Source: a virus
Direction: 5' to 3' (one strand)
Length of the DNA stretch: 26,207 bases
IMG/VR virus record: IMGVR_UViG_3300029309_000302
Span: 1-26,207 of that record
In this document: piece after piece, positions 7,639-23,647 of the stretch
Layout of the letters: each line of letters opens with the position of its first letter
How positions within the stretch are numbered: position 1 is the stretch's first letter
The notes under the pieces: generated by a model
Databases searched by the model: none
The model's input: the letters and a program-made list of their open reading frames with translations, nothing else
What the model was told of the DNA's origin: nothing
Program-made: the position numbers and the translations under genes

Positions 7639-10600
7639 ATGGCATATTCATCAAGTAAACCGACAGGAGCCAAGAGCCAAAAGAGTTCTAGTTTTAGTTC
7701 AAAAGGAACTAAGAAGAAGGTAAGTAAGGTATCAACGTCTGGAACTTCAACTACGGTTGGGACTACACAGCCTATACAGGAAGATGATAGTACACGTAGT
7801 AGTGGTGCTGTAAGAAACGTTACTGAGCCTAATTATTATGCTGCGAGACACTTCTATGTAACACCTGGAAGTACAAGAGATACAGGAAGTGCCCTAGCCC
7901 CTACTACGGTCCTATGTCCACTCAAAGTACACCTAGGGACACTTGGACCAATAGGTCAACCAGATGGAAGTATAGCTAGTAATAGCACAGGACAACTATG
8001 GACAGGGGGCCAGGGATTTGCTGAAGTAACAGGTGTAGTTCCTATTAAAATAATAAGAGCGCACGATGGGTTTACATATACGGGCAAAGACGTAGTTGAT
8101 AGAATAGATAAGGTAACTTACGACTACAAAAAAGGAGGTCATAAAGTAATAACAGTGCACTATGACACGGAGACTACTGGTGACACAGTCTTTGAAAACT
8201 ATCTTCACTCAGTTGCACTGCAGATATTCTTTAGTGATGGATCTAAAGTAGAGGTAACGCAGCCTATAGTAGCCGGTAACATAGGAGAGACTAAACCCAT
8301 AAAGGAGGATAACACGATTACGTTTTACAATAACGATGTAGGTAATATTGGGGGACTAGAGTGGGAGGATATAAACGGTGTCTTTGATGATGAGTTTAGC
8401 ATAATATCTGCAGGATCGTTCTTTTCAGGAAACTATGTATACGCTGATGACTCATTCAGTTTTCACAAACACTACTACTGGGGTACAGATCCTAAAGGGG
8501 ATAGAATAGGAACTGTATATAATCAGCAGGTCCTAGAGACTTACACTAACTCTACAAGCCGGTCAGGTTCACTAGATAGTCAGCAGACTGGAGTATGGGA
8601 CTGGGATGAAAGATACGCTATAGGATACGCCAGTAATAACTTTGCAACTAAAACAGGAGCCGATGGATTTGATTACTCCGCAGCCTTAAGCAGTGTAGGA
8701 TCACAATACTACACTTTGTCTAAGTATAATATTACTGGGGCAGTGTTAGGGAGTAACGCCCCACAATGGGGGGCGGTAAATAGTGTTGGTTATTGGAATG
8801 CAAGTGAGACTGCGGCTGCTCTTTCACAGGCCCCATCAAACAGATTTGCACCTGTAAATGCCTACTATAATGGTGGTAAAGGCACTACCATTAGACATGC
8901 TGGCATGTGTATAAGCGTCCTTGGTGATGGAATAGATATAGCTAATGTAATGGCCGGTGAACTTACTGGTAAGCACCGAAGGGGCACACAATTAGCTTTA
9001 GCATTAAGAGCTTTCTTAAAGGGTATGTACACAGACAGCGACTTTGGTGGAGGTCCTAACTATCTACAGGGTACAATTCTTGCCTGTGACGAGTTTAATG
9101 TAACATCTGAAATATTTAACAACGGGGAAACAGTTGATGCGTACTGCATATCACAAGAAAATACTCAAAACGTGACGGGAGGCGCGTCGGTTTTTACCGC
9201 TTCCAACGGAAATGACACTTTTGTAAATCTGTTAGTAGGAAATAGAAATTCAGCCTTTAACGCAATAGGAGTTGACTCTTTATCAAAGGCACAGTATGCA
9301 GTATTTGCCGCTACGATGGGAATGTCTTACAGTCCTGAAACGGATGAAATTAGTACGGAGCAAGATTATGCGTCAGCTTGTTTCATCACGAACGCTTCCT
9401 CCGAAGCTGGTAAAGGGTTCCTACTACCGTTCAACGTAAGAAACGGGAATAACGATACTGGTTTTAATACCAATTTTGGGGCAAACTTAGAACCACTGAC
9501 TAATTCACCAAATTATATAGGGAATGTTCGTATAATCATGAAGCCTTTCTTGTCACACGTAGAGTTTCCTGTGAGTGCAAGTGGTCAGTATAAAGCCTTG
9601 GTTAGAGACCCAGGTCAACAGGATGCAATTATTTCTGCAACATCTAGCGAAGCAGTGGAGTTTGCATCTGCTCAAGGGGTTCCTGACTTCATAGAGTCTA
9701 ATCTATACGAGAGTCCTATTATACAAGGTGCTGTAAATGCATTACCAACCTTGTTGAACCTAGGTAGTTTTGCAAACATAGCGTATACGTCTCCTACAAG
9801 CGTAGCAAACTGTGATCCTCTGAGTCTTTTACACGTTGACCCTAAGTTAGACGCTTTAGGATATCAGAGTCCAAACCAGACTGTACCTTATAGCTTAAGC
9901 ACTAGGCAACCTTGGGGTAGAGTCAATGGAGTTCCTAAAGAGCAACACTATATAGCTGGGGGCATAGACTATTTTAGTGATAACGCTAAGTATCGGATAA
10001 CTGTTTTCCCAAAAAGTACTTTAACTAACCCTAGTACAGCTGGGTCTCCACAGGGCCCAGAGGTAGAGTTTCTTATGAAACAGTTATACAATTCTGGTAT
10101 TAGACTACCTAATGTATTAACCTTTGAGGGTACAGATATAGGAATTAGCGAGTTTGGTGGTGGTATATTTCAATTAAGTGGCTTCGCTAATTATCAATTT
10201 AAGAGTGGTCTAACAGCAGAAGGTCAATCTCAAGAGAGTTCAAATACTTTAGGTAACACACTAGACATATATGACTTCACATATGTACCAGGTAAGAATC
10301 TTTTAGATAATGCTGGATTCCCTATAAATACTGATACTGTATCCCCAAATAGCGAGGTTACAGGTTCAGCACCAGAAGATTTAAACATCGTTACGTTCAT
10401 TCCTAATGGAGAATTTACGGATACTAGAGTCCTTTTGACATCAGAGGGTCCAGATCTTGATAGGCCATTTATTGACATAGATATAGAGGATTTAGCTGGA
10501 GAGAACTATAACTTGATTAATGATCAAGGTTTGCAGTTCAATACTGTAAGTAGACTGTCTCTTAACAAAAACTTAGGGCACATTGGTAGTGAGCCTACTG

Positions 10601-13600
10601 GTCAGGTATCTGAATCTCCATTTAGTTTAAACTTTGACTTCATAGTGTTTGGATTAACTGATTTTGAGATTGGTCCCCCTGTAGAGGAGATAGTAGGGTG
10701 CACAGATCCAGCAGCTAATAACTATGATGAAGAAGCCAATGTTGATAATGGTAACTGTATATACTGTAGTGAAAATGCTCCAGGAGATGTCGTAGATCCA
10801 CATGAGTTTATATCAGAAGGCATAGGAGGGGAGGTATTAGACGCTCCAACTGTAATAAGTAATAGTGACGCATACGGAGGTCTACAGGTGGTAAATACCG
10901 ATTGGTACGTGGGCAACCTTGGAAATGCTGTAAACTTTTCAAATCCATTACAAGGTGTAGCTGCGGATAATCCTAGTGGTACTTCACAATGGACTTCATT
11001 CCAAGCCGTTTTTAACGTAGAGGCTTCAGCCATCATCGGGGCAGCTCAGAATGGTGGATCAACAGTTAGCACTGAAGAGTGGTTAAACTACTGGACTACT
11101 TCCGTAGATGCAAGTTCTTTCAGTCTTCTTATATTTAACATAGACGCATTTGATTCAGATTCATTTGAATGGGCTAGTCAGTCAGGGGTAACAGCTTACA
11201 ATAGCTTACCAATAGTAGAGGGAGCCACAGCAGTTACAGTATTAGAAAACCATGGTACCGCCGTAAACCCTAAGTTTGGTACGCAGGAGGGTGATGTAGG
11301 CAACGTTAGTCTAGGGCTAGAAGCAGGTAAACACTATGCAGCTATACTAAGAATAGAAATTAAAGAGTGTAATCAAGACTATTTTATGGCTTTCAACTTC
11401 TGGGTTTTGTACTGTGACTGTGAAGACAACACTGCACTAAACTTCGCAGGTAATGATTGGTCATATCCTTGGAGTGATGAAAACTCTTACCCTGCAGGAT
11501 ATAGTAATAGTGCCTTCTCATTCTGTACTAGTGGACAGTACAGTAGCAGAACATGGCTAAGATCTAAGAGAAGTAGTGAGACGGACGGTCTATGTCGATA
11601 CCCAGAGCCATATGTAGACTGTAACGAGTTTATAGATTTCTGTATAACATCGTCAACCTTTGAGTGTGAGCTTACTGGTAACATAGTTGATGGATTCACC
11701 AACATAGGAAGTGGTAGTGTATACGTAAATGTATTTGGGGTGTATACAGGATCGGACATAATAGGCCAAGAATACGCTTTGGTAGTTAACGGTCAACTGT
11801 TTCAGTTTGTACTGCAACTGATTGAGGTAGGTACAAATGAAGTAATTCAAGAGGTGGCAGTAACAAATATAGATGACTATGCTGCACTAGGTGCTCCAAA
11901 TCCACAGAACGTAAATGGTGTAAACATAGCGTTTAACAATGTATCACAAGGACAGTACAATGTAGTCCTTAACCAGATAGGTGAACTATTCCCGGGTCAA
12001 GACCCAGAGGCCGGTCCATGTCTGGGACTATCACCTAATGGTACAATAGGCACAGTAAACGTAGGGGAGGGTGAAAACTGTGAAGAAGTGGTCGGAGGAT
12101 GTTGTGATCCTACAGCAATTAACTATGTAGAAGGCTGTACTGATGAAGTAAACGGCATACCATTTACCGTATATGATGATACATGTGAGTATTTTGACTG
12201 CAGCAATGTATTTCAGAGCGTAAGAATAAATGGCTTTTCAGTCACCAACTCATTAGCAGAATGTGCCACCCAAGAGGTAGACACAGACGGAGATGGAATT
12301 CTTGATACTACAGAAAACTTCTTAGGGGACACAAGTAGTGGGGGAGTCACATTTACAGTCTTTGACCCTGATGAGCCTACACCATTTAACATAGCAGTAA
12401 TTGCACTAGTTAATGGTAATGAGAGTGACGCTCTGGAAACTTTGCTATCATTTTATGATGCGAATGCTGAACAAATAACAAGTAATAATACAGCTAACGC
12501 AATACCTATAACTCAAGGTAGTACTGTTGTAGGAGGGTATCTCCCAACAAATGTAGTTACAGTCCCGCAAGGTATGTTTTCTGCAACAGGCATGTATGCA
12601 GGCAACTTCTTAGCATTTGCACTACCACATACCATAGACCCAGCTTTCACCCTTACAATATGTGAGGAGCAACAATTAGAATTTGCCAATGACTTTGTTA
12701 GATTTAATGTGCTGCTTGACACTTCATTTATTACGGATTGCAACGAGCCTTGTAATGAGCAAGTGAATCCTGAGGATTGTGATGACTACGTAGGAGGGTG
12801 CACAGACGTTTCAGCTACTAACTTTAATGAAAATGCTAATTATGATGATGGAACATGTGAATACGGGGGTACAGAGACATGTATAACTAACCCAAGTCTG
12901 CCAGAATGTGAGGAGTGTGAAGACGAACAGGGGGTGGGTCTTAGAAACTGCGATGAAACCTTTGGTAACGGGGAGGGATGTGGCGACCCACAAGCATGTA
13001 ATTACAATCCTGATGCCTTGATACCTGTTCCCGCACTATGCGAATACTGCTGTGATGGTGATGAAAACTGTGTAGAAAACGAAGATGAGGACGATTGTGA
13101 AGATGAAGATGGTAATGTAGATCCTAACTGTACAGATCCTACATGTCCAGATCCTACTAACCCACAATGTGATGAGGTTGTAACTAACCCCTGTCCTACT
13201 GAAGCAGAATGTCCACCACCCCCAATCCCTGACTGTATAGCACTAGGAAACTGTGATGATGGGGGACCTGGAACTGGAGACCCTTCAGTAGACATAGAGG
13301 ATGAGGTAGTAACTATAGAGGTGTCTTGTGATCCTATGTTCAACAACCAAGATTTTGAGACTTGGAGAACAGAAGCTATGACCTGCTCTGCAAATGAGGG
13401 CAGTAAGATGTTATTCAAGCTCAGAGCTGGTGTGAAAGATCACAATAAAGACGATTTGGTTAAACTTACTCTGATTAACTATCTGTTTAACCAGGGTGTA
13501 GATTTACCATGCTTGTTTAGCTGTGACGAGTATGACAATAAAACACAGAACACTAGGTATAGAGATGTAGATTGTGCAAACAAGTGGAGAACAAACGGGT

Positions 13601-13965
13601 CTCAAAGATGGACACCCAAGAGCACGTTTAATCAAGGAGATACAGTAAGGATACTCAGAAACGTCAGAGGTAAGACAGTAGCATCCTACTTTATAGCTAA
13701 AAAAAATGTACCAGCACAACAGATAAGACCAGACCAAAGAGGTGTAGATAACGAGTACTGGGTAAGATGTATAAATGTCAGAGGACAGAAGAGCACCACA
13801 CCAAATGGAGTAACATATCTAAGAACTCTATATGAGTTTATGCGCAAGTTCTGTGAAAACTGCAGTATAGCAACCTTGAGTTCAGGAACAGCTGAAAACG
13901 AAACCAAGCCCCCATCTATGGATACAGGGCTCAGGGACAACGATGACTTTGAAATAACATTCTAA
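7639..13965 (+). CDS. Giant tail / host-contact protein with GCTD-type Cys repeats
   Basis: A 2,108-residue protein, the largest in the window. Residues 1-60 are Ser/Lys/Thr-rich and probably disordered. A beta-rich body follows to ~1010 (SFHKHYYWGTDPKGDRIGTV; LQGTILACDEFNVTSE; YKALVRDPGQQDAIISATSS). From 1020 it changes character: Cys repeats of the form GC-D-A-NY...DG-C begin near 1020, 1486, 1720 and 1780, with a degenerate unit near 1262, separated by beta domains. DTDGDGILD (1548-1556) fits a thrombospondin-3/EF-hand-like calcium loop. Residues ~1805-1870 are a Cys/Asp/Glu/Pro-rich linker, and ~1895-2108 form a mixed C-terminal domain. Size, modularity and the fibre gene just after it suggest a tail or receptor-contact protein. 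The repeats are typical of exported Bacteroidota proteins. No enzymatic motif was recognised. Confidence 0.68.
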   Translation: MAYSSSKPTGAKSQKSSSFSSKGTKKKVSKVSTSGTSTTVGTTQPIQEDDSTRSSGAVRNVTEPNYYAARHFYVTPGSTRDTGSALAPTTVLCPLKVHLGTLGPIGQPDGSIASNSTGQLWTGGQGFAEVTGVVPIKIIRAHDGFTYTGKDVVDRIDKVTYDYKKGGHKVITVHYDTETTGDTVFENYLHSVALQIFFSDGSKVEVTQPIVAGNIGETKPIKEDNTITFYNNDVGNIGGLEWEDINGVFDDEFSIISAGSFFSGNYVYADDSFSFHKHYYWGTDPKGDRIGTVYNQQVLETYTNSTSRSGSLDSQQTGVWDWDERYAIGYASNNFATKTGADGFDYSAALSSVGSQYYTLSKYNITGAVLGSNAPQWGAVNSVGYWNASETAAALSQAPSNRFAPVNAYYNGGKGTTIRHAGMCISVLGDGIDIANVMAGELTGKHRRGTQLALALRAFLKGMYTDSDFGGGPNYLQGTILACDEFNVTSEIFNNGETVDAYCISQENTQNVTGGASVFTASNGNDTFVNLLVGNRNSAFNAIGVDSLSKAQYAVFAATMGMSYSPETDEISTEQDYASACFITNASSEAGKGFLLPFNVRNGNNDTGFNTNFGANLEPLTNSPNYIGNVRIIMKPFLSHVEFPVSASGQYKALVRDPGQQDAIISATSSEAVEFASAQGVPDFIESNLYESPIIQGAVNALPTLLNLGSFANIAYTSPTSVANCDPLSLLHVDPKLDALGYQSPNQTVPYSLSTRQPWGRVNGVPKEQHYIAGGIDYFSDNAKYRITVFPKSTLTNPSTAGSPQGPEVEFLMKQLYNSGIRLPNVLTFEGTDIGISEFGGGIFQLSGFANYQFKSGLTAEGQSQESSNTLGNTLDIYDFTYVPGKNLLDNAGFPINTDTVSPNSEVTGSAPEDLNIVTFIPNGEFTDTRVLLTSEGPDLDRPFIDIDIEDLAGENYNLINDQGLQFNTVSRLSLNKNLGHIGSEPTGQVSESPFSLNFDFIVFGLTDFEIGPPVEEIVGCTDPAANNYDEEANVDNGNCIYCSENAPGDVVDPHEFISEGIGGEVLDAPTVISNSDAYGGLQVVNTDWYVGNLGNAVNFSNPLQGVAADNPSGTSQWTSFQAVFNVEASAIIGAAQNGGSTVSTEEWLNYWTTSVDASSFSLLIFNIDAFDSDSFEWASQSGVTAYNSLPIVEGATAVTVLENHGTAVNPKFGTQEGDVGNVSLGLEAGKHYAAILRIEIKECNQDYFMAFNFWVLYCDCEDNTALNFAGNDWSYPWSDENSYPAGYSNSAFSFCTSGQYSSRTWLRSKRSSETDGLCRYPEPYVDCNEFIDFCITSSTFECELTGNIVDGFTNIGSGSVYVNVFGVYTGSDIIGQEYALVVNGQLFQFVLQLIEVGTNEVIQEVAVTNIDDYAALGAPNPQNVNGVNIAFNNVSQGQYNVVLNQIGELFPGQDPEAGPCLGLSPNGTIGTVNVGEGENCEEVVGGCCDPTAINYVEGCTDEVNGIPFTVYDDTCEYFDCSNVFQSVRINGFSVTNSLAECATQEVDTDGDGILDTTENFLGDTSSGGVTFTVFDPDEPTPFNIAVIALVNGNESDALETLLSFYDANAEQITSNNTANAIPITQGSTVVGGYLPTNVVTVPQGMFSATGMYAGNFLAFALPHTIDPAFTLTICEEQQLEFANDFVRFNVLLDTSFITDCNEPCNEQVNPEDCDDYVGGCTDVSATNFNENANYDDGTCEYGGTETCITNPSLPECEECEDEQGVGLRNCDETFGNGEGCGDPQACNYNPDALIPVPALCEYCCDGDENCVENEDEDDCEDEDGNVDPNCTDPTCPDPTNPQCDEVVTNPCPTEAECPPPPIPDCIALGNCDDGGPGTGDPSVDIEDEVVTIEVSCDPMFNNQDFETWRTEAMTCSANEGSKMLFKLRAGVKDHNKDDLVKLTLINYLFNQGVDLPCLFSCDEYDNKTQNTRYRDVDCANKWRTNGSQRWTPKSTFNQGDTVRILRNVRGKTVASYFIAKKNVPAQQIRPDQRGVDNEYWVRCINVRGQKSTTPNGVTYLRTLYEFMRKFCENCSIATLSSGTAENETKPPSMDTGLRDNDDFEITF
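10696..13047 (+). repeat. Dispersed GCxD protein repeats in the giant tail protein
   Basis: Four clear units start at 10696, 12094, 12796 and 12976. Their shared form is Gly-Cys-x-Asp, then Ala-x-Asn-Tyr/Phe-(Asn/Asp), then acidic residues and a closing Cys, about 24 residues in all. Example starts are GCTDPAANNYDEEANVDNGN and GCTDVSATNFNENANYDDGT. The units differ at DNA level, so they are old or selected rather than recent duplications. Confidence 0.8.
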
Positions 13966-13966
13966 A

Positions 13967-15517
13967 ATGGCAAAACGAATAATAGACCTAGACCTAAAGT
14001 CAAAGAGTGAATCTGTGGCTAATGAAAGGCTGGTTGTACAAAATACAAAAACACAGAGGTCCAGCTCCTACCAACTAGCGGACATATTCCCCATCCTACA
14101 AGACGGGGGAACGACCTCTGGTAGTAAGAGTTTAGGCAGCGCCCTAGGCACATCGACTGTAACCTCTCTGTTTGTAGGTGGTGGATTTGGTAACTCACTT
14201 ACAGGTAATGAGAATAATACTCTCATATTCAAGGGAGTTAGATCTAATGATACAGTACTAGAGATAAAGAACGAGACGTTAAGCTCAGATGTAACTAAGA
14301 CCAACTTAGTACTAGACTTCAATCAGAGTAACTTAGATCTTAGCGCTTGTAATAACACAAGCTCTGGGTTTTTGTCTCAGGCAACACTGAGCAATACTAA
14401 CCATGTTACAGGCACCTTACCTGTAGCTAATGGTGGTACAGGGGCAACTGTATTTGCAGACAAGTCCGTTATCATAAGTCAAGACTCTGGAACTGATACA
14501 TTATCCGCAGTAGCAATGTCCACAAATGGGCAGATACTTATAGGTGGAACATCTGGACCAGCAGTGGGTACACTAACTGCAGGAACTAATATTACTATTA
14601 CAAACTCAGACGGGGGAATAAGTATAGCATCTGCTATTGGTACTATATCATCTACCCTAGACTTAGATAATAACAACATTGACTTAGGAACAGGGTTCTT
14701 GTCTGGAGACGGATCAGCAGAGGGAGTAAGACTAGACTCTACAGGTAAAGTGTTTATAGGTAGCAGTACACCAACTGCCTACTTTACTAATGACTTAAAC
14801 ATCAACTCTAGTATATCATTAGGTCCTACAGACGGCAGTACAGCTCAGAAAATATCTATGAATGCTTGTACGTCAGGATCAAGCCCTGCTCTTACGATAT
14901 CTGGATCTAGCGCATCAGGAACAGGTAATGCAGGCGGTAATGTCCTATTGAAAGCTGGGGCAGGAGATAGTAACGGTAACGGGGGAGATACAGAGATACA
15001 CGGTGGACTTAGAGCAGGATCTGGTACAGACGGATCAGTAGTAATAAAGACTGGAGCATCTGGGACTATAACGACTGCTGTAACAGTAGATGGCTCACAG
15101 AATACAACTTTCTCTGGGGGTATCGTACAGAGAGGAGATGCAGGTATAGTACTGCATCAGAATGCCCCAGCTACTACTGATGACGGAACAACTGTCGTAT
15201 CTGCAGCTAACGTATTAACTGGTATAGTGACATGTACCCCAACAGCAGACAGAAGTAAGGCTACAGACACAGCTGCTAACTTCATCAGCACGTTAGGACT
15301 TACAACAGACGATGACGCATTCGACTTCAGTGTAATTAACCTAGCTACAGACGGAACATCATTTATCACATTTACAGGAGGCACAGGAGTGACTCTTGTA
15401 GGCAGTGCAATAGTCTCTGCACAAGACAATGCAGAAGATGCATTCACTTCTGGTGTAGGAAGATTCAGAATTAGAAGAACAGGTTCATCTGCAGTTACTA
15501 TGTACAGAATAGCCTGA
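13967..15517 (+). CDS. Tail (or head) fibre protein
   Basis: A 516-residue, Gly/Ser/Thr-rich protein starting one base after the giant tail gene. The N-terminal ~45 residues probably dock to the virion. At 149-161, GTLPVANGGTGAT is a hallmark of many phage fibre shafts, followed by a GTLTAGTNITITNSDGGISI piece. Residues ~320-365 have the repetitive GGNVLLKAG / GGDTEIHGG pattern seen in trimeric beta-helical fibres. The last ~115 residues (from about 400: TVVSAANVLTGIVTCTPTAD; FRIRRTGSSAVTMYRIA) match a beta-rich C-terminal domain common in marine phage fibres. It probably forms trimers that contact the host surface. Whether it projects from tail or capsid cannot be told from sequence. Confidence 0.8.
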   Translation: MAKRIIDLDLKSKSESVANERLVVQNTKTQRSSSYQLADIFPILQDGGTTSGSKSLGSALGTSTVTSLFVGGGFGNSLTGNENNTLIFKGVRSNDTVLEIKNETLSSDVTKTNLVLDFNQSNLDLSACNNTSSGFLSQATLSNTNHVTGTLPVANGGTGATVFADKSVIISQDSGTDTLSAVAMSTNGQILIGGTSGPAVGTLTAGTNITITNSDGGISIASAIGTISSTLDLDNNNIDLGTGFLSGDGSAEGVRLDSTGKVFIGSSTPTAYFTNDLNINSSISLGPTDGSTAQKISMNACTSGSSPALTISGSSASGTGNAGGNVLLKAGAGDSNGNGGDTEIHGGLRAGSGTDGSVVIKTGASGTITTAVTVDGSQNTTFSGGIVQRGDAGIVLHQNAPATTDDGTTVVSAANVLTGIVTCTPTADRSKATDTAANFISTLGLTTDDDAFDFSVINLATDGTSFITFTGGTGVTLVGSAIVSAQDNAEDAFTSGVGRFRIRRTGSSAVTMYRIA

Positions 15518-15522
15518 TTTTA

Positions 15523-15530
15523 TATATTTG
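15523..15530 (+). promoter_or_regulatory. Candidate Bacteroidota -7 promoter element
   Basis: TATATTTG is a perfect TAnnTTTG, in the short gap after the fibre gene and 29 bases before the ATG at 15560. It would start a transcript covering the holin and following genes. The -33 TTTG element is not evident at the expected spacing, so confidence is limited. Confidence 0.35.
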
Positions 15531-15559
15531 TATTATTGTAAACCTTAAAACACAAAGCA

Positions 15560-15970
15560 ATGTCAGCTACAAAAATAGAAGCTACAAATAGAGAGTTACT
15601 TGAGATCTTCAGAGGTCTTGAGTCAGTGAAACAAATTAAAGGAGCACGTTTTAGTGTTCTCGTTGGTAAAAACTTAAAAGAGTTGAGACATAAGCTAGAG
15701 CCTATTGAAAAGGCAGCTATGCCACCTGTTGAGTTCCAAGAGGTATCTGTAAAGATGCAATCCCTTGTTGAAGAGCAAAACTCAGAAGCGATGGAGCAAC
15801 TTGAAAAAGATAGCAAGGAAATCATAGAGGATAGAAAGGCACAACTGCAGGCTGTAGAGGATATGTTAGATGAGTCTACAGAGGCATATCTGCATATGAT
15901 TAAGGAGTCTCAACTCCCAGAAGACATTACTGGTGAGCATATAGAGAGGCTTCTTAAAATAATAAATTAA
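15560..15970 (+). CDS. Coiled-coil protein, unknown function
   Basis: A 136-residue, acidic, almost wholly helical protein. The N-terminus (NRELLEIFRGLESVKQIKGA, then RFSVLVGKNLKELRHKLEPI) resembles small proteins of marine phages that I remember only as hypothetical. Residues ~55-115 have heptad-like spacing and charged repeats typical of a coiled coil. No signal peptide, membrane helix or catalytic motif is seen. It begins a new unit after a probable -7 promoter box, with a TTAAAAC leader like that of the capsid gene. It ends immediately before the next gene (TAA then ATG). A chaperone or assembly role for the following virion proteins is possible but not shown. Confidence 0.6.
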   Translation: MSATKIEATNRELLEIFRGLESVKQIKGARFSVLVGKNLKELRHKLEPIEKAAMPPVEFQEVSVKMQSLVEEQNSEAMEQLEKDSKEIIEDRKAQLQAVEDMLDESTEAYLHMIKESQLPEDITGEHIERLLKIIN

Positions 15971-16372
15971 ATGGCAAGCATTACAACAAGACTTAGTGTA
16001 AGGTCTAGAAACCTTTTCAGCAATGCTATTGGTGCAAGACATGACAAGTCTTTTGCCGTTAGCAGCGATGCAGATAGACGCATCAAAACAATCAAAGAAG
16101 CATCAGGATCTCCCGCTGTCCTAGTGGATGCTTCTGATTACTATACGAGCACAGACATAACTCTGTTTGTGTTTATTAAAAACGCCACTAGCACGGCTGA
16201 TAAGAATCTGTTCATTCTTGTAGGATCTCAGATCATAGCTCGTCTAAAGCCTGGTGAGTATATCCTTTGGCCATGGCATGTAACCAGCGGAAGCAATGAC
16301 GTTAAGATCTATTCAAACGATGCGACTACTGGTGTAAAGGCTGAGTACTTTGCTGCTAAGATGACGAACTAA
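15971..16372 (+). CDS. Small beta-rich virion protein, paralogue of the 24338 product
   Basis: A 133-residue protein with no signal or membrane segment. Residues ~63-131 read as a small beta-sandwich: ITLFVFIKNATSTADKNLFI, then LKPGEYILWPW and TGVKAEYFAAKMTN. The same order of elements occurs in the 24338 product (YVYIKN, LGAGEFAILP, VVAEYGYWTKG), and both begin MA-S/T-I/L-TT-x-L. The two are probably paralogues or share a fold. Such small beta proteins are often capsid decoration or head-fibre-associated proteins in marine phages, which is inference here. It starts immediately after the preceding stop codon and is one base from the holin gene. Confidence 0.6.
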   Translation: MASITTRLSVRSRNLFSNAIGARHDKSFAVSSDADRRIKTIKEASGSPAVLVDASDYYTSTDITLFVFIKNATSTADKNLFILVGSQIIARLKPGEYILWPWHVTSGSNDVKIYSNDATTGVKAEYFAAKMTN

Positions 16373-16373
16373 G

Positions 16374-16805
16374 ATGGGTAAGAAGATAAAAGATACTGGC
16401 CTAGGTAAGTGGTTAAAGTCTAAAGCCCCAAATGTACTTGAAGTAGTTGGGGATCTTCTCCCAGATCAGGGAGGCCTCGGTATAGTTAAGAATCTCATAG
16501 ATAAAGATCCTGATGTAGACACTGCTGAAGGAACTGCTGCTGTAGATGCAGAGATAAAGTTCCAAGAGAATGTTACATCAAGATGGCAAGCGGATATGGG
16601 GAGCGACGTAAAGCTGGCTAAGCTAATACGGCCAGTGACGCTTATTTCCCTCATGGCTATGTTTATGGTAACTATGTTCATAGACAGCATGGACAATGTG
16701 CCATTTAATGTAAAAGACTCCTATGTTGATTTACTCCAAATCCTAATGCTCACTGCATTTGGTGCTTACTTCGCTGGTAGGACGATAGAAAAAGCCAAGA
16801 AGTAA
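16374..16805 (+). CDS. Holin, 3TM-type
   Basis: A 143-residue protein. A cytoplasmic amphipathic N-terminal half (KWLKSKAPNVLEVVGDLLPD) is followed by QENVTSRWQADMGSDVKLAK and then two clear membrane helices at about 85-105 (LIRPVTLISLMAMFMVTMFI) and 118-136 (YVDLLQILMLTAFGAYFAGR), ending in the basic tail TIEKAKK. The RWQADM...LAKLIRP run before the first helix and the FGAYFAGR-type second helix are typical of the family named for the gene-transfer-agent 3TM holin. Holins permeabilise the inner membrane at a set time so that endolysin or its activators can act. No endolysin gene is visible in this window. It sits in the late operon among virion genes. Confidence 0.78.
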   Translation: MGKKIKDTGLGKWLKSKAPNVLEVVGDLLPDQGGLGIVKNLIDKDPDVDTAEGTAAVDAEIKFQENVTSRWQADMGSDVKLAKLIRPVTLISLMAMFMVTMFIDSMDNVPFNVKDSYVDLLQILMLTAFGAYFAGRTIEKAKK

Positions 16806-16825
16806 GGTAACTGTAAACCTAACAT

Positions 16826-17962
16826 ATGACAGTAAATGAAATAAAAAGTTTCCTAGAAGAGAAACCAGGTTACTTAAAAAAGAGTGCAGAGGCACTCTCA
16901 GGCCGACTAGAGTGTTCTGTTGAACTATGTGAGACTGCACTTTACGAAGCACGAAAGAAAGCTAAGGGACAGCCTGAAGATAACGCTAACAGTAATGACA
17001 GTGTTATCACAGAGTTCCAAACGTTCCTTGACAAAAATGGCATCGCACCTGCTGATGTATCTAGCGTAAAGTTCTGGCAGACTGTGTCAGGACAACAAAG
17101 ATTCTCTGTAGTTACAAAGGGAGAGTCTATGAGCGTAGAAGCAATTAAGCAGGAGATTGAGGAGTTTGCAGCTAGTTACAGCCCAAAGGCTGCAAAGGTT
17201 GAGTACAAACAGTTCTCTGACCCTGTAGTGTATGAGGTATCTCTACCTGACATACACTATGGTAAACTCCACAATCTATCACTAGAGCAGGTAGAAGAAA
17301 ACTATCTAGCAGTAGTCGGTGACTTGATGGCAAAAGCACAAGGACTACAGATAGAAAGGATATTGCTACCTATAGGCAATGACGGTATGAACTCAGAAGG
17401 GCTTCGTATGTCAACCACAAAAGGAACACCACAACAAGACAATGGTAGTTGGAAAGACACATTTAGAGGCTATTGCCAGTTAATAGTGTATGCTATAGAC
17501 TATCTAACTACAATAGCTCCTGTTGACGTACTAGTGATATCTGGTAACCATGACTATGAACGCATGTTCTATGCAGGAGATGTTCTTGCAGGATGGTACA
17601 GAAACGATGCCAACGTTAGTGTGGATAATGATTACAGTTCTCGAAAGTACTATGAGTACGGACAGAACATGCTAATGTTTACACACGGCGACAAAGAGAA
17701 ACCGGCTGATATGCCATTGATAATGGCTACAGAACAACCGGAGATGTTTGCTAGAGCTAAGCACCGTGAGGCACATTGCGGACATCTTCACAAAGAAATG
17801 GTTAATGAGTACAGAGGTATCAAAGTACGGTTTCTACCATCTATTTGTCCTAACGATGAATGGCACAAGCAGATGGGGTACGAAGCTAAACGAACAGGGC
17901 AAGCATATATATGGAATAAGCAAAGAGGACTTGAAGGCTATTTACAAACGAATGTTATTTGA
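16826..17962 (+). CDS. Calcineurin-like metallophosphoesterase
   Basis: A 378-residue protein. The N-terminal ~50 residues are helical (EIKSFLEEKPGYLKKSAEAL), a linker follows, and the phosphoesterase domain begins near 135. All five metal-binding blocks are visible: DIH (D142, H144), GND (184-186), GNHD (240-243), THGD (286-289) and GHLH (319-322). These bind two metal ions that hydrolyse phosphomono- or diesters. The substrate is unknown; in phages such enzymes are variously linked to nucleic-acid or nucleotide cleavage. The helical N-terminus may bind DNA or a partner. The position between holin and connector genes, not in a replication module, is notable. The gene overlaps the next one by 11 bases. 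Confidence 0.88.
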   Translation: MTVNEIKSFLEEKPGYLKKSAEALSGRLECSVELCETALYEARKKAKGQPEDNANSNDSVITEFQTFLDKNGIAPADVSSVKFWQTVSGQQRFSVVTKGESMSVEAIKQEIEEFAASYSPKAAKVEYKQFSDPVVYEVSLPDIHYGKLHNLSLEQVEENYLAVVGDLMAKAQGLQIERILLPIGNDGMNSEGLRMSTTKGTPQQDNGSWKDTFRGYCQLIVYAIDYLTTIAPVDVLVISGNHDYERMFYAGDVLAGWYRNDANVSVDNDYSSRKYYEYGQNMLMFTHGDKEKPADMPLIMATEQPEMFARAKHREAHCGHLHKEMVNEYRGIKVRFLPSICPNDEWHKQMGYEAKRTGQAYIWNKQRGLEGYLQTNVI

Positions 17963-18239
17963 AGACGACATAGAAGACGATTACGATTTCTCTACCTCAA
18001 TAGAAGACGAGATAGAGATACTTGATGAGGCATACAGAAATGCATTTGCTGTAGCCACAGGCAAGATGACTGTAGTTGAGCTTTTGTCAAGAAGCTCTGA
18101 TATGATCTTCTTGCCTTTTGACCCTAGTGATCCCTCTGCACTTAAGGTTATCATAGACGATATGATAAAGTACTTTGAAGAAAACGAAGAATATGAAAAA
18201 TGTGCTAAGCTAGTTAGCATAAAAGGGCTAGATCAATGA
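17952..18239 (+). CDS. Small acidic protein, unknown function
   Basis: A 95-residue acidic protein. I chose the ATG at 17952, which overlaps the phosphoesterase stop by 11 bases; the longer open frame upstream (to 17748) lies wholly inside the phosphoesterase and its extra residues do not look like a protein start. The N-terminus is Asp/Glu-dense (LFEDDIEDDYDF). The rest is helical, with GKMTVVELLSRSSDMIFLPF and MIKYFEENEEYEKCAKLVSI. Similar short proteins with FLPFDP and EEYEKCAKL-type ends occur in other Bacteroidota phages, as I recall, without a function. It overlaps the next gene by 4 bases (ATGA), so the three genes are probably translated together. Confidence 0.6.
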   Translation: MLFEDDIEDDYDFSTSIEDEIEILDEAYRNAFAVATGKMTVVELLSRSSDMIFLPFDPSDPSALKVIIDDMIKYFEENEEYEKCAKLVSIKGLDQ

Positions 18240-18898
18240 CTTTAGATGAGATTGCATACAATATCCTAAACCTAGTTAGGGCTGGTAGATCTAGCAATGA
18301 TGATATTATATCATTGGATCAGATCAAGTTCAACGTACAGCACTACCGTGCTATGTTTATACGTAGAGACTACAACAGGAATGGGTTTGTATCCAATACA
18401 CTAGAACAGGACTTAGGGTGCTTGGACCTAATTAAGGTTGACGCTTCTAAGTGTTGCAATCTCCCTATAGACTGTCCAGTATATAGAACTAAAAGAAAGC
18501 TCCCTAGAACAGTTAGATTTAACTTTAGGGATGCTTTTACATTTATAGGTAAGCCTAATGGAACAGGCACTATTCCTAGAGTAGAGGCCTATGAAATAGA
18601 GTACATACCATATGATAGGTATACATCAGGACAGACTAAGTTCTATGTCATCGATGACTTCATATACGTATACAATCCAAATGGACTTGAAGCTATAAAC
18701 GTAAGAGGGGTCTTTGAAGACCCTGAAACCGTAGCAGAGTTTGCTACATGCAACCAAGGGGAATGCTATGACGATCAGTCCCCTTACCCACTCCCTATGG
18801 ACATGGTGAGCTTGATAACTAATGGAATAGCTTCAGGAGAGCTCGTGCTCATGTCACAGGGCATAAATGATACTTCTAACGATAGACAACAAAACTAA
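18236..18898 (+). CDS. Connector/ring-type structural protein, crAss-like group
   Basis: A 220-residue protein beginning TLDEIAYNILNLVRAGRSSN and continuing ISLDQIKFNVQHYRAMFIRR, a helical start seen in structural proteins of crAss-like and other Bacteroidota phages. The middle has paired cysteines (CCNLPIDCP) and a beta-rich part with FTFIGKPNGTGTIPRVEAYE and KFYVIDDFIYVYNPNGLEAI. The C-terminal part has LPMDMVSLITNGIASGELVL. The end, LITNGI plus a helical tail, parallels the EIVEMAVKSIL ending of the 4691 ring protein, which suggests a related ring fold. It probably joins portal and tail. No enzymatic motif is present. Confidence 0.68.
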   Translation: MTLDEIAYNILNLVRAGRSSNDDIISLDQIKFNVQHYRAMFIRRDYNRNGFVSNTLEQDLGCLDLIKVDASKCCNLPIDCPVYRTKRKLPRTVRFNFRDAFTFIGKPNGTGTIPRVEAYEIEYIPYDRYTSGQTKFYVIDDFIYVYNPNGLEAINVRGVFEDPETVAEFATCNQGECYDDQSPYPLPMDMVSLITNGIASGELVLMSQGINDTSNDRQQN

Positions 18899-18900
18899 TT

Positions 18901-19242
18901 ATGGGATTAAATACAACAAGAGAAAGACTGCTAGATAAGCAGGTAAAAGCATCACAAGCTAGTAAAGCAGCCAATGAGTCAGTATCATCCACAAACAAGC
19001 TGTCACTTGGCGATAACGGCTGTGTGATGATCAATGGCAACGCTGCTCAAAGTGTAAGTGCAGGAACGTACTTCGCAGTACAGTTCTTGAAAGCATGTAC
19101 TCCTACAGCTCTTACCATAGGTAGTAGCACAACTGTTACTGGACAAGAGATACCTGCAGGTACTATACTCTACGGAGATATCACAGCCATCACTGGTGAC
19201 AGTGGGGCATTGTACGTACTATATAAAGGTGATCCTACGTAA
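18901..19242 (+). CDS. Small virion-associated protein, unknown function
   Basis: A 113-residue protein. The first ~35 residues are helical and Lys/Ser/Ala-rich (RERLLDKQVKASQASKAANE) and look like a docking segment. Residues ~36-113 are beta-like (SVSAGTYFAVQFLKACTPTA, then QEIPAGTILYGDITAITGDS). An A-G-T-Y-F / A-G-T-I-L pattern of this type is common in small capsid- or tail-associated proteins of marine phages. Its stop codon shares a base with the next start (TAATG), linking it to the LamG-like gene. No signal peptide, membrane segment or enzyme motif is seen. Confidence 0.55.
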   Translation: MGLNTTRERLLDKQVKASQASKAANESVSSTNKLSLGDNGCVMINGNAAQSVSAGTYFAVQFLKACTPTALTIGSSTTVTGQEIPAGTILYGDITAITGDSGALYVLYKGDPT

Positions 19243-20015
19243 TGTCTTTAGGACTGGGAACAAATATCACAAAAGTACCATACCCGTATCCTACGGGAGG
19301 CGCTGTCGAGACACAGAACTACTCTGTGTACTTAGACGGAGCTAGTGATCGTATACAAGGACCCAACCTGGCAAGTACTTGGTTGCAGGTCTTTGATGCA
19401 AATGCTGAGTTTAGTCTACACTTTGCTGTAAAGCTAGACGCTCTAAACTCAACTATAAGCTTTACTGGTACGAGCACTACCTTCTTCTGGATACAGGTAA
19501 ATTCAGATGGCGACTTAAATATTTCAGCCACAATTAGCGGCGGCCTTGTGGGTAATGTGACATTTGACACTAGTATGTCTACCGGCACGTGGTATGATAT
19601 AGTCATTACAGCAACTAATGATACAACTAGATCCTTTATTTGTTACGTAAACGGTAGTGCGGTAAGCATATTGACCACAAATGCTGCATTTAACGCTTCA
19701 GCAGATATAGCTGCTATATCAGGTAAGTTCACCGTGGGTACCTTCCTGAACGTAATAGACTATGACCTTAGAATAGATAGGCTTGCTTCTTGGAGCACTG
19801 TTCTTACTGCTGCTGAAGTAGCAGAGATCTACAACAACTACCCAGATCTTACAGCGGACTCAGGAAACTATGCTGAATCTGCCAGACTGGTAACATACTA
19901 CAAGATAGAAGAAGGATCAGGCACTACCATGTCAGATAGCTCTGGTAATAGTCACAGTGACCTCACTGTTGTCAACGCAACTGGAAACTTCTGGAGTACA
20001 GATACTAGAATATAA
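19242..20015 (+). CDS. LamG/concanavalin-like jelly-roll virion protein
   Basis: A 257-residue protein. After a short N-terminal arm (SLGLGTNITKVPYPYPTGGA), residues ~26-195 show the LamG_3-type pattern: NYSVYLDGASDRI, FSLHFAVKLD, TGTWYDIVITATNDTTRSFI, CYVNGSAV and a YDLRIDRLASWSTVLTAAEV...IYNNYPD segment. The C-terminal ~50 residues (LVTYYKIEEGSGTTMSDSSG) are the recurrent companion motif of these domains. LamG-like jelly rolls often bind glycans; on a phage this would serve surface attachment. It is coupled to both neighbours by TAATG overlaps. Cytoplasmic synthesis without a signal peptide supports a virion part. The ligand cannot be inferred. Confidence 0.75.
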   Translation: MSLGLGTNITKVPYPYPTGGAVETQNYSVYLDGASDRIQGPNLASTWLQVFDANAEFSLHFAVKLDALNSTISFTGTSTTFFWIQVNSDGDLNISATISGGLVGNVTFDTSMSTGTWYDIVITATNDTTRSFICYVNGSAVSILTTNAAFNASADIAAISGKFTVGTFLNVIDYDLRIDRLASWSTVLTAAEVAEIYNNYPDLTADSGNYAESARLVTYYKIEEGSGTTMSDSSGNSHSDLTVVNATGNFWSTDTRI

Positions 20016-20269
20016 TGGCAACGACCTACGTAATCATAGAAGCAAGCGAAGTAAGTTCTGTAGACTTCTCACAAGTATGTGAGGACTCTGCAGATACTGT
20101 ACGCTACAACCTTGACAACAGCAAAGCACTTGTCAAGTTTGATGGTAATACCCCATCATTCCTAAACGAGAAGACACAGTATACTCACACTGAGATAAGA
20201 GCAATATTAACCGATGAAGCGCAAGGCTGGTACATAGCTGATCCGCAAGCATATCTAGATAGCTTATAA
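20015..20269 (+). CDS. Conserved small phage protein, unknown function
   Basis: An 84-residue protein beginning ATTYVIIEASEVSSVDFSQV. It continues with YNLDNSKALVKFDGNTPSFL and a C-terminal HTEIRAILTDEAQGWY piece. Proteins with the same VDFSQV...DT-RYN-D opening are frequent in marine phage structural clusters, as I recall, always uncharacterised. It is coupled to the LamG-like gene by TAATG and lies two bases before the next gene. A small alpha/beta fold is likely, with no catalytic or targeting signal. It may be a partner or chaperone for neighbouring virion proteins. Confidence 0.6.
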   Translation: MATTYVIIEASEVSSVDFSQVCEDSADTVRYNLDNSKALVKFDGNTPSFLNEKTQYTHTEIRAILTDEAQGWYIADPQAYLDSL

Positions 20270-20271
20270 TC

Positions 20272-20544
20272 ATGGCAACACCCGCATGGCAAAGAAAAGC
20301 AGGCAAGAGTAAGTCAGGAGGACTTAATGCTAAAGGTAGAGCCTCATATAGAAAAGCTAACCCTGGTAGTAAACTTGCTGCACCCGTAACAGAATCAAGC
20401 CCTAAGGGTAAGAGAGCAGGACGCAGAAAATCGTTCTGTGCTCGTATGTGTGGAATGAAATCCCGCAGAACCGGAGCTAAGGGTAAAAGAGATCCAAACT
20501 CACGTATTAACAAAGCACTTAGAAAGTGGAGATGCAGATGCTAA
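20272..20544 (+). CDS. Small basic PAWQRK-type phage protein (DUF6321-like)
   Basis: A 90-residue, strongly basic protein. It opens with ATPAWQRKAGKSKSGGLNAK and GRASYRKANPGSKLAAPVTE, and continues with GRRKSFCARMCGMKSRRTGA and DPNSRINKALRKWRCRC. PAWQRK-GLNAKGR(A)SY followed by a RRKSFCARM block is a conserved phage signature, which I believe corresponds to DUF6321. Function is unknown; charge and size suit nucleic-acid binding or packaging with DNA. Four cysteines, including a Cys-Arg-Cys end, might bind metal. Its stop codon shares a base with the ATG of the exported T9SS-type protein. Confidence 0.8.
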   Translation: MATPAWQRKAGKSKSGGLNAKGRASYRKANPGSKLAAPVTESSPKGKRAGRRKSFCARMCGMKSRRTGAKGKRDPNSRINKALRKWRCRC

Positions 20545-22604
20545 TGAAAAACTTACTTACTATATTATTCATAGGGCTGTCTAATATTATAGCAGCACAA
20601 CCAAGCTGGGTTAACCTAGAGTTTCAGACCGACGCATACGGAGGTGAAAGCACTTGGGAGATATACATGGTTGGGTCTGACAGCACTTTTGTATCAGGAG
20701 GACCCTACCCCGACTCTTCTTATACAGAACAGCTAATACCTCTACCATCAGGTGAATACAACCTTGTAGTCAGCGATGCTTTCGGGGATGGTATTTGCTG
20801 TCAGTTCGGTGAGGGATGGTTTAAACTAAACAATGACTGTGGTCTTGACCTGTCAGTATTTGACTTCAGCACAGAGCAGATAACAGTTCCTTTTGTCTTA
20901 GAGCCGTGTGCTCTTCCTATTCCTGGATGTACAGACGATGCATCTAATAACTACAATCCGTGGGCCACTGTAGATAACGGCACATGTAATGTAAGCGAAT
21001 GCCCAGAAGGTCAGGCCTTTGTATCTATGGAGTTGACCTTAGATAACTGGCCCAACGAAACTGGGTTTACCCTTGTTGACCTAGCTGTTGGTCAGTTCTA
21101 TGAGCAGGTGCTACCAGGAGGATTTAACTTTGGGGATCAGCTAGCCACATACACCTACGACTTCTGCGTAGCACTTGGCTTTGAACTTATTCTGACAGAC
21201 ACATACGGAGACGGACTCAACGGGTCGGCAAGTGGTGGTCAAGACGGAGGCGTGGTCATCACTGCATGCGACGAGGAGGTTGTCTGGGAGCTAGAAGATT
21301 TGGCCTACTCAGACAATAACGGAAACGTTCACTATTCGGGAGCTGTGTTTGTAGAGCCCTGTGCCCCTGACAGCGTAATAGTCGGATGTATGGACGACGA
21401 TTACGTTGACTACAACCCAGAGGCTACAGCTCAAGACACATGTGAGGTTCTACATACTTGGGGATGTATGAACCCAGAAGCATTTAACTACGACTCAACT
21501 GCTACTATCTCAGACCTCAACAGTCCGTGCCTTACAACAATAAGAATCGGTGACGCAGCAGGTGACGGTTGGGGTAATTCACATATAGGTGTTAAGCAAG
21601 GTGACTTGCAGTGGATCTTTACCATGGGTCCTGGTCAGTTTTCTCAGTCATGGGACTTGGTGTTAGACTCTGATGAAAAGGTAGATATATACTACTTTGA
21701 GATAGGGGGACCGCAACAGCCTCCACAAGAGACTGAGTTTCAGACACTGCACAACTCTGTTCTTGTCACAAACGAGCTAGGTGACACACTCATGGTTGAA
21801 GGTCTTAATCCATTCTTCGACAACGGACAGGGTGCTCTGCAACCGTTCAAGAACCCAGAGTGGAATGTATACAGCTTCATGCCATACTGCGGCACTAGCT
21901 GTGTCCCGTTTACGTATGGATGCACTGATGAAACTGCACAGAACTATGATTCTGAAGTCAACACAGAAGACGGTAGCTGCTACTATAACGCTGGGTGTAC
22001 ACAAGCTGGATACCTAGAATACTACACACAAGGATATGATGCAGACTACGACGACGGATCATGTGAGACGCTGGCGGTCTTTGGATGCACTAATGCAGAA
22101 GCACTTAATTATGAGCCTGAAGCCAATGTAGACAATAACAGTTGCATAGCTGTAGTAGAGGGCTGCATGGACCCCGACGCATACAACTACAACGAGGAGG
22201 CTAATACATCAACACAGTGTCTGTACGATGCAGGATGTGTAACAGGTCCAGGGGAACCATACTGGGCCAACGATTACTGCTACACGTGGGTTATCGAAGT
22301 TGATCCCTACTGCTGTGAAGTTGGATGGGACGCAACTTGCATAGAACTATATGACTACTGTGGTAATCAAACGTCTAGTGTAGATATGACTGTTCAGTCT
22401 TTGCTTCACTTCTTCCCTAATCCTACAAATGGAGATATTCGTGTACAAGCTCCTATAGGCACAATTATTACAGTTATAGACGCCTCAGGTAGAAAGGTTA
22501 TAGAAACACAAGACACTAGAATACACCTACCATCCGCAGGTGTATATGTAATTATGGCTAACTACAAGGGCCGAATCAAAAAAGAAACAGTAGTAAGGCA
22601 ATGA
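20544..22604 (+). CDS. Exported repeat protein with T9SS C-terminal sorting domain
   Basis: A 686-residue protein. I chose ATG 20544, which overlaps the preceding stop (TAATG) and starts the signal peptide KNLLTILFIGLSNIIAAQ; in-frame ATGs at 20526 and 20532 lie inside the previous gene. DxxGDG-type beta domains centre on 78 (DAFGDGICC), 219 (DTYGDGLNG) and 337 (DAAGDGWGN). GCxD repeats start at 128, 281, 307, 459, 484, 514 and 540. A Cys-rich module spans 579-606 (EVDPYCCEVGWDATC). The end (612-686) has the type A T9SS sorting pattern: FFPNPTNGDIRV with PNP at 625, TVIDASGRKV, then LPSAGVYVIM and a basic KETVVRQ end. In Bacteroidota such proteins cross the inner membrane by Sec and the outer membrane by the type IX system, and are anchored on the surface or released. 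In a phage late operon this implies display on the infected host cell. Confidence 0.88.
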   Translation: MKNLLTILFIGLSNIIAAQPSWVNLEFQTDAYGGESTWEIYMVGSDSTFVSGGPYPDSSYTEQLIPLPSGEYNLVVSDAFGDGICCQFGEGWFKLNNDCGLDLSVFDFSTEQITVPFVLEPCALPIPGCTDDASNNYNPWATVDNGTCNVSECPEGQAFVSMELTLDNWPNETGFTLVDLAVGQFYEQVLPGGFNFGDQLATYTYDFCVALGFELILTDTYGDGLNGSASGGQDGGVVITACDEEVVWELEDLAYSDNNGNVHYSGAVFVEPCAPDSVIVGCMDDDYVDYNPEATAQDTCEVLHTWGCMNPEAFNYDSTATISDLNSPCLTTIRIGDAAGDGWGNSHIGVKQGDLQWIFTMGPGQFSQSWDLVLDSDEKVDIYYFEIGGPQQPPQETEFQTLHNSVLVTNELGDTLMVEGLNPFFDNGQGALQPFKNPEWNVYSFMPYCGTSCVPFTYGCTDETAQNYDSEVNTEDGSCYYNAGCTQAGYLEYYTQGYDADYDDGSCETLAVFGCTNAEALNYEPEANVDNNSCIAVVEGCMDPDAYNYNEEANTSTQCLYDAGCVTGPGEPYWANDYCYTWVIEVDPYCCEVGWDATCIELYDYCGNQTSSVDMTVQSLLHFFPNPTNGDIRVQAPIGTIITVIDASGRKVIETQDTRIHLPSAGVYVIMANYKGRIKKETVVRQ
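20925..22220 (+). repeat. Seven GCxD protein repeats in the T9SS-type exported protein
   Basis: Units start at 20925, 21384, 21462, 21918, 21993, 22083 and 22161. Their form is GC(T/M)(D/N), then A-x-NY-(N/D), then an Asp-Gly/Asn run and Cys, for example GCTDETAQNYDSEVNTEDGS. The unit near 21993 is degenerate. The form is the same as in the giant tail protein encoded about 8 kb upstream. Confidence 0.85.
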
Positions 22605-23647
22605 AATACTTAGTAACCATACTGCTGATAATCATACCAACTATCAGCTATGCGCAAAGCACATTCTATAAAGAAGTTCTTAGAAGAGCAACATTCTACG
22701 GAGCGGTTAATGGGGGCAATTCGATATCTGATGATGACACATATTCTGTCTCTACCGGACAACTTGCAACCGGAGTTATCGAAACACCATTTGACTACAG
22801 TCTTACGCTTGGCGTCCGCAAGATTGCGCGTTTTGGCTATGAAAACAGAGCTAACATATTCTATGATGGCACTGAAAAGACGTACGGGGATGCAGCCACT
22901 ATTGGACGATACTCAGGATTTGAGTTCCTCGCAGAAGCAGACTGGAGAAGACAACAAGGTAAAAACTTCCTAGACCAAGATTACTTCGTTAGATACGTAG
23001 CAGACTGGTGGGTAGCAAAAGCTGAGTGGCTGCAGGACGGGTTTGCAGACATACAATACTTTGAAGGATCGCAAAGACTACGCCTACGCATAGGTGATAA
23101 GCTATCTATAAATGCAGGTATAGTGCAAAGGATATCAGAGCCCTATGGCTATGACCCACTACAGGAATGGTTGTTAGAGAACAATGAGATACACTACACT
23201 GCACTAGCCATACAAGAAGGCTACACTGTGAACTTTGACGAAGGAGAGTTCCTATCTCCAAACGGTGCAGTCATAGCCAATAGCTCTGATGTATGGAGAG
23301 AGGTTGTTATACCTCAAGTGTTGGATGACTATGTAGCACGTAAAAGATCTCAACTTTCTAGACAATGGATACACTCAGCCGTAATTGGGTTTGACTTCTA
23401 TCATTATAGTAAAGACTTCTGGTTTCATTCATGGGGTAATGTTATGCCTTACCACATAAACAATGGAGATGAATACTCATACCACAACTTTGTAAGTAGC
23501 TCACAATGGCTAGACATTGGGGCTGGACTTGTATTTGGTACTAAAATATCTAAAAGCTTAGGAGTATTCACAGAAGGTAAATACAACAGATACTGGAACA
23601 GAGAATGGCATGACTTCTCTATCGGATTAAACTACATACTACTGTAA
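22601..23647 (+). CDS. Probable outer-membrane beta-barrel protein
   Basis: A 348-residue protein with a clear signal peptide (KYLVTILLIIIPTISYAQ, cleavage probably after AYA or AYAQ). The mature part is rich in alternating aromatic/polar strands (YSLTLGVRKIARFGYENRAN; YSGFEFLAEADWRRQQGKNF; QRLRLRIGDKLSINAGIVQR) and ends WHDFSIGLNYILL, a membrane-strand-like finish expected of an outer-membrane barrel. No plug, TonB box or enzyme motif is seen. It overlaps the T9SS-type gene by 4 bases (ATGA), so the two are probably co-translated. T9SS cargo is sometimes encoded beside PorP/SprF outer-membrane proteins; this gene's sequence does not let me claim that family. A receptor-like barrel or lysis-related protein is also possible. 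Confidence 0.7.
   Translation: MKYLVTILLIIIPTISYAQSTFYKEVLRRATFYGAVNGGNSISDDDTYSVSTGQLATGVIETPFDYSLTLGVRKIARFGYENRANIFYDGTEKTYGDAATIGRYSGFEFLAEADWRRQQGKNFLDQDYFVRYVADWWVAKAEWLQDGFADIQYFEGSQRLRLRIGDKLSINAGIVQRISEPYGYDPLQEWLLENNEIHYTALAIQEGYTVNFDEGEFLSPNGAVIANSSDVWREVVIPQVLDDYVARKRSQLSRQWIHSAVIGFDFYHYSKDFWFHSWGNVMPYHINNGDEYSYHNFVSSSQWLDIGAGLVFGTKISKSLGVFTEGKYNRYWNREWHDFSIGLNYILL

Follow-up and report, generated by a model that had tools for sequence, protein, structure and literature searches.

Why would one phage carry the same cysteine repeat on a giant tail-type protein and on a protein predicted for export to the surface of its host? The question is raised by IMGVR_UViG_3300029309_000302, a complete IMG/VR fragment of 26,207 nucleotides (hereafter the window, meaning that whole stretch), in which a 2,108-aa tail-type protein and a 692-aa putative cargo of the type IX secretion system (T9SS) share units of about 21 to 25 aa with two Cys. 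An earlier reading of the sequence alone (the sequence-only reading) proposed that both proteins bind one ligand through this repeat. Our analysis favors another answer, namely, that the repeat was probably recruited separately by two unrelated phage genes, and that the cargo gene belongs to a mobile four-gene cassette.

A cysteine repeat shared by the tail-type protein and the cargo

Both open reading frames (ORFs) were present where the sequence-only reading had placed them:

7639..13965, plus strand: 2,108-aa tail-type protein whose C-terminal half carries the Cys repeat, assigned by position and homologues
20526..22604, plus strand: 692-aa predicted T9SS type A surface cargo, with likely start ATG 20544, a signal-peptide-like N-terminus, and a match to TIGR04183

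A hidden Markov model (HMM) of the repeat was trained on bacterial proteins alone (156 distinct units) and applied to both proteins, with 500 shuffles of each protein as the null. The highest shuffle score was 8.2 bits, a value that never approached those of the clear units. Scores below are from this bacteria-only HMM unless indicated.

10696..10758, plus strand: tail repeat unit, residues 1020-1040, 35.1 bits
12097..12186, plus strand: divergent tail repeat unit, residues 1487-1516, 8.0 bits, inside the shuffle range
12796..12858, plus strand: tail repeat unit, residues 1720-1740, 27.4 bits
12976..13041, plus strand: tail repeat unit, residues 1780-1801, 16.9 bits
20925..20987, plus strand: cargo repeat unit 1, residues 134-154, 33.1 bits
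21384..21443, plus strand: cargo repeat unit 2, residues 287-306, divergent, 8.9 bits (24.6 bits with a phage-trained HMM)
21462..21530, plus strand: cargo repeat unit 3, residues 313-335, 24.0 bits
21918..21980, plus strand: cargo repeat unit 4, residues 465-485, 33.1 bits
21993..22064, plus strand: cargo repeat unit 5, residues 490-513, divergent, with its end alone matching (4.0 bits), kept in orthologues
22083..22145, plus strand: cargo repeat unit 6, residues 520-540, 31.2 bits
22161..22220, plus strand: cargo repeat unit 7, residues 546-565, 19.3 bits
22407..22601, plus strand: predicted T9SS type A C-terminal sorting domain, approximately residues 628-692, from TIGR04183 and Foldseek

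Three of the "at least four" tail units claimed previously are solid and the fourth, at residue 1487, is divergent; a possible fifth, elaborated copy near residue 1260 was seen by eye only and scored -3.4 bits with the HMM. The seven claimed cargo units comprise five solid ones, one supported by orthologues, and one divergent. The divergent units (8.0 and 8.9 bits) are not significant on their own against shuffles with the bacteria-only HMM; with the phage-trained HMM, no shuffle reached 12 bits. A tblastn search with the cargo against the window also recovered a tail unit at an E value of 2e-6. These scores exclude chance and indicate homology between the units of the two proteins. No Pfam or NCBIfam model spans the repeat, and a literature search with repeat sequence strings returned nothing relevant.

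The description of the 692-aa protein as T9SS-type was borne out. TIGR04183 scored 22.4 bits (cut-off, 23) on the window cargo and matched 36 of 38 members of its family, and the predicted C-terminal domain (CTD) had a fold like those of the NucA CTD (8glk_D, TM 0.74 by target length) and the RgpB T9SS CTD in Foldseek, the whole-cargo search being informative for the CTD only. A hydrophobic stretch follows MKN at the N-terminus and ends in AAQ, and most relatives are similar. Sequence and model both point to a T9SS type A cargo predicted for export to the host surface. The cargo was rejected as a virion protein on the grounds of its signal peptide and T9SS domain, and no catalytic domain was recognized in it with Pfam or NCBIfam. 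Its family was found on at least 108 viral contigs. At loci L011, L012, L014, L018, L063, L347, L350, and L353, a second, shorter repeat-bearing gene (411 to 521 aa) lies between the cargo gene and that of the barrel described below, and L290 has an additional secreted repeat protein on the minus strand after the cassette.

The tail-type protein has no signal peptide, as the sequence-only reading had it, and its gene is located between those of the major capsid protein (MCP) and the crAss tail ring protein 2. We infer, because of these two features, that it is a component of virions. Its homologues in crAss-like relatives, which were reached via a capsid alignment and via cargo-bearing records, have repeats at the same place. 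Single-sequence patterns found no relatives of this protein in viral contigs, and neither it nor the cargo, nor two further cassette products described below (the barrel and the thioredoxin-like protein), matched any INPHARED phage.

Origin and nature of the repeat

Cargo-related stretches numbered 357 in the genome collection. The 80 best came mostly from metagenome-assembled genomes (MAGs) of Flavobacteriales and Saprospirales, and 55 of the 80 had the repeat, which is common in Flavobacteriales extracellular proteins. One of the 55 repeat-bearing loci, L196 (NZWA01000061.1), is a phage contig; it was binned in a Flavobacteriales MAG and, besides the cassette and an amidase endolysin, encodes a DnaB-type helicase and apparently a ribonucleotide reductase.

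A tree of 117 units intermixed those of tails, cargos, and bacteria, with 37 label changes, and no bootstrap tree had tail, cargo, or bacterial units as one clade. Constraining the tail and cargo units to one clade against the bacterial units was rejected (p-AU 0.018, 21 columns). The grouping of phage units against host units, for which the sequence-only reading had suggested such a tree, was therefore not obtained, although the tree is weakly resolved. In a 17-residue nearest-neighbor comparison at equal sampling, tail units were nearer to bacterial units 65% of the time and nearer to cargo units 29% of the time. Cargo units leaned the opposite way, toward tail units, and we do not use this comparison as a main argument. 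The best fit is the fallback offered in the sequence-only reading, in which each protein recruited a common Bacteroidota repeat independently.

Inside the units, conservation falls on Gly-Cys, Asp, Asn-Tyr, Ala, and the closing Cys, which are the residues expected of a predicted disulfide-stapled scaffold. The number of units is variable, with approximately 6 to 10 in cargos and 1 to 5 in tails, and the structural model of the cargo places its units between predicted beta domains. Because of this scaffold conservation, variable number, and position, the units may behave as a stalk or spacer. Genome G069 (L409:13750-19512) encodes a 1,921-aa tail-position protein with two strong units that is otherwise unrelated to the window tail protein, a further case in which a phage structural gene appears to have acquired the repeat separately.

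Distribution of the repeat-bearing tail and the cargo

Phages were grouped by capsid and portal into crAss-like phages (lineage C), portal groups A and B, and phages of 122 to 155 kb without that portal. The crAss-like relatives were collected via the capsid, and all of the records are fragments, so that absences are soft. Seven crAss-like records of 41 to 87 kb had the repeat-bearing tail protein and no cargo, and four of 42 to 67 kb had neither. Where the tail giant was visible in cargo-bearing records, it had units in 4 of 13 from lineage A and in none of 5 from lineage B. Where the structural region of non-crAss phages was read, the tail-position giants of G001, G002, G007, and G069 had units. 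Overall, the repeat-bearing tail occurred in 11 of 25 cargo-bearing records with a visible tail giant, leaving 14 with no unit there, versus 7 of 11 cargo-free crAss-like records. Repeat-bearing tails are no commoner in cargo-bearing phages than in cargo-free crAss-like ones, and the pairing of repeat tail and cargo is not obligatory.

A four-gene cassette in several phage lineages

In nearly every intact locus, the cargo gene is followed by three others in a fixed order:

22601..23647, plus strand: 348-aa predicted outer-membrane beta-barrel, its start overlapping the cargo stop (ATGA), with a signal-peptide-like N-terminus
23647..23931, plus strand: 94-aa single-transmembrane (TM) protein, with one hydrophobic segment from residue 17 and a charged, helical-looking C-terminal half
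23940..24308, plus strand: 122-aa exported protein with a putative thioredoxin (Trx) fold, a weak match to TIGR01068, and NxxN instead of CxxC

About a dozen loci have the cargo after the barrel, TM, and Trx-like genes instead. The barrel model has approximately 12 strands (pLDDT 68), and the Foldseek matches listed for it were outer-membrane barrels (NalP, EstA, NanC, and OmpG at E values of 1e-7 to 1e-4, with modest TM), so that the model predicts an outer-membrane beta-barrel. Its family was found on at least 597 viral contigs and in 0 of 299 Flavobacteriales genomes; the search did detect it in positive controls. A role of the barrel as a PorP/SprF partner was rejected, as there was no family match.

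The 94-aa gene follows that of the barrel in nearly every intact cassette. Its product is possibly i-spanin-like and has a weak match to phrog_462, "lipoprotein"; no lipoprotein was recognized in the cassette by eye, and no dedicated lipobox search was run. The 122-aa protein matched TIGR01068 at 19 bits (cut-off, 96.8). All 57 of its relatives have N-x-x-N and none has CxxC, i.e., both catalytic Cys are replaced by Asn; a role as the disulfide catalyst for the Cys-rich cargo was rejected, since the active-site Cys are absent.

At least four phage groups have the cassette. The portals of lineages A and C were 17 to 20% identical, versus 60 to 84% for the barrels, 68 to 93% for the TM proteins, and 39 to 84% for the cargos, and the position of the cassette varies even inside lineage C. 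This pattern indicates that the cassette has moved between phage lineages. The holin family phrog_3427 showed 71 to 89% identity between A and C (portals, approximately 19%) and lies away from the cassette in some genomes. None of the literature searched, which excluded most subscription journals and preprints, describes the four-gene cassette.

Proximity to lysis genes

Outside the large phages, the phrog_3427 holin is often upstream of or adjacent to the cassette. The window has one as well:

16374..16805, plus strand: holin phrog_3427 (E=5.8e-22), upstream of the cargo in many relatives by gene order

In the 122- to 155-kb phages and L196, a small membrane protein is followed by the cargo, barrel, TM, and Trx-like genes and then directly by an endolysin with PG_binding_1 and Amidase_2 domains. 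In G008, the holin stands beside an M15-peptidase endolysin, apart from the cargo. From this setting, we tentatively regard the cassette as late and envelope-acting, most likely tied to release.

Interpretation and alternatives

The reading we prefer has an evolutionary and a functional part. The repeat would be a small, probably disulfide-stapled spacer unit common in Flavobacteriales extracellular proteins, which a giant tail-type gene and a surface-protein gene, themselves unrelated, each acquired separately. Late in infection, the cargo would reach the cell surface through the host T9SS, with the barrel in the outer membrane, the TM protein in the inner membrane, and the Trx-like protein in the periplasm. 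Together they might target the outer membrane, allowing holin and endolysin to release the virions. The evolutionary part, separate recruitment plus a mobile cassette, we hold to be probable. The full functional proposal is possible, and we put it forward with considerable doubt: a mobile system in at least four marine phage groups in which the T9SS-placed cargo, with the barrel, the inner-membrane protein, and a non-catalytic Trx fold, opens or remodels the outer membrane at lysis as a T9SS-dependent alternative to spanins.

Several points weigh against this reading. As the unit alignment has 21 columns and few supported forks, independent recruitment is favored and not proved. At equal sampling, cargo units score slightly nearer to tail units than to bacterial units, and the tail carries the repeat in each of the 7 cargo-bearing crAss-like records observed (Fisher p=0.12 for the crAss-like group). 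The structural models are moderate (pLDDT 68 and 70, pTM 0.64 and 0.30), no lytic domain was recognized in any cassette member, and in G008 and G013, two of the genomes inspected, holin and cargo are separate. Late genes can adjoin without sharing a step. Moreover, T9SS export is thought to require the proton-motive force, and the export of the cargo would therefore need to precede the firing of the holin.

Among the alternatives, superinfection exclusion or receptor masking stands out as possible, if doubtful. The cargo, with the barrel, would cover or replace the phage receptor, such that infected cells and debris adsorb no virions, and this would be independent of the repeat; nothing ties exclusion to the shared repeat. 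A surface cargo and an outer-membrane barrel within one gene cluster would suit such a role, as would the lower conservation of the cargo than of the barrel, TM protein, and holin and the second, shorter repeat-bearing gene beside the cargo in some phages. Bellas et al. proposed superinfection exclusion for another T9SS cargo, in a cryoconite phage (PMC7468147). However, the cassette is common to phages with unrelated tail proteins, in which one receptor is not required, and its neighbors are often lysis genes.

The cargo might otherwise serve the fitness of the infected cell through adhesion, aggregation, or nutrient capture, with no part in release or exclusion. All of its domains resemble Flavobacteriales surface proteins and none recognized is catalytic, but this is unlikely given that the four genes are tightly conserved in apparently lytic phages of different lineages and lie next to genes for holin or endolysin. 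Still less probable is that recombination inside one phage genome copied units between the tail and cargo genes. Both genes are in one genome, and the best cargo match of the unit at residue 1020 outscores its best bacterial match (78 versus 72); however, tail and cargo units of the window are identical at just 5 to 11 of 17 residues, cargo units cluster with the corresponding units in the cargos of other phages, and a single phage clade was rejected.

The binding of one ligand by both proteins, for receptor competition or self-recognition, appears very improbable, since the presence of the repeat in both, even with its regular occurrence in the tails of cargo-bearing crAss-like records, is set against the lack of a phage clade, the non-obligate pairing, and conservation that falls on scaffold residues.

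Genome setting

Matches to a crAss capsid and a crAss tail ring protein assign the phage of the window to the crAss-like phages (Crassvirales):

2291..3754, plus strand: crAss-type MCP (PF23898, E=5.5e-77)
18236..18898, plus strand: crAss tail ring protein 2 (PF25702, E=1.7e-40)

The structural region also has a LamG/concanavalin-like lectin gene (PF13385) at 19242-20015, possibly encoding a second binding protein, whose counterpart in L006, a close relative, is just 44% identical over 59 aa. At 16826-17962 lies a tail-module gene with a calcineurin-like phosphoesterase domain, 75 to 89% identical among crAss-like relatives. Small basic proteins are encoded on both flanks of the cassette: that at 20272-20544 is a DUF6321 protein (PF19846), and that at 24709-24939, which has no Pfam match, resembles it by eye.

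Comparison with known systems

Tail proteins of crAss-like phages have recruited BACON, a Bacteroidota extracellular linker domain, sometimes in tandem, and T9SS sorting-domain proteins occur near BACON ORFs in one phage cluster (PMC6949934). In both cases, a Bacteroidota extracellular unit has been taken up by tail-associated proteins; unlike BACON, the repeat described here is a different and smaller unit that is also found in the T9SS cargo of a conserved cassette. Disulfides are known in a crassvirus tail (PMC10172136). Like BACON domains in crAss tails, the shared repeat alone is ordinary, and it probably marks a shared host world and not a shared ligand.

The cassette itself is unusual: a surface protein predicted to pass through a secretion system confined to Bacteroidota and relatives is kept, together with three envelope partners, in distantly related marine phages, often beside lysis genes. 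It resembles the spanin lysis modules of Gram-negative hosts in its holin and endolysin neighbors, its short inner-membrane protein, whose tail is charged and helical-looking, and its outer-membrane component. No outer-membrane lipoprotein spanin was recognized in it by eye; what it has in place of one is a predicted barrel, together with a T9SS cargo and a non-catalytic thioredoxin-like protein. To our knowledge, phage lysis in T9SS-bearing marine Flavobacteria has been little studied, and the cassette provides four concrete candidate genes for it.

The closest precedent for the cargo is the cryoconite "Cryophage," which has T9SS type A cargo genes and for which use of the host T9SS was presumed and superinfection exclusion suggested (PMC7468147). 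The cargos are alike in being phage-encoded and in having T9SS type A domains. However, those of Cryophage are variable enzyme or PA14 genes in one phage, termed a unique occurrence, whereas here one family is fixed in a four-gene cassette of many phages. The cassette would thus show the exploitation of the T9SS by phages to be a conserved strategy that goes beyond one-off cargo genes.

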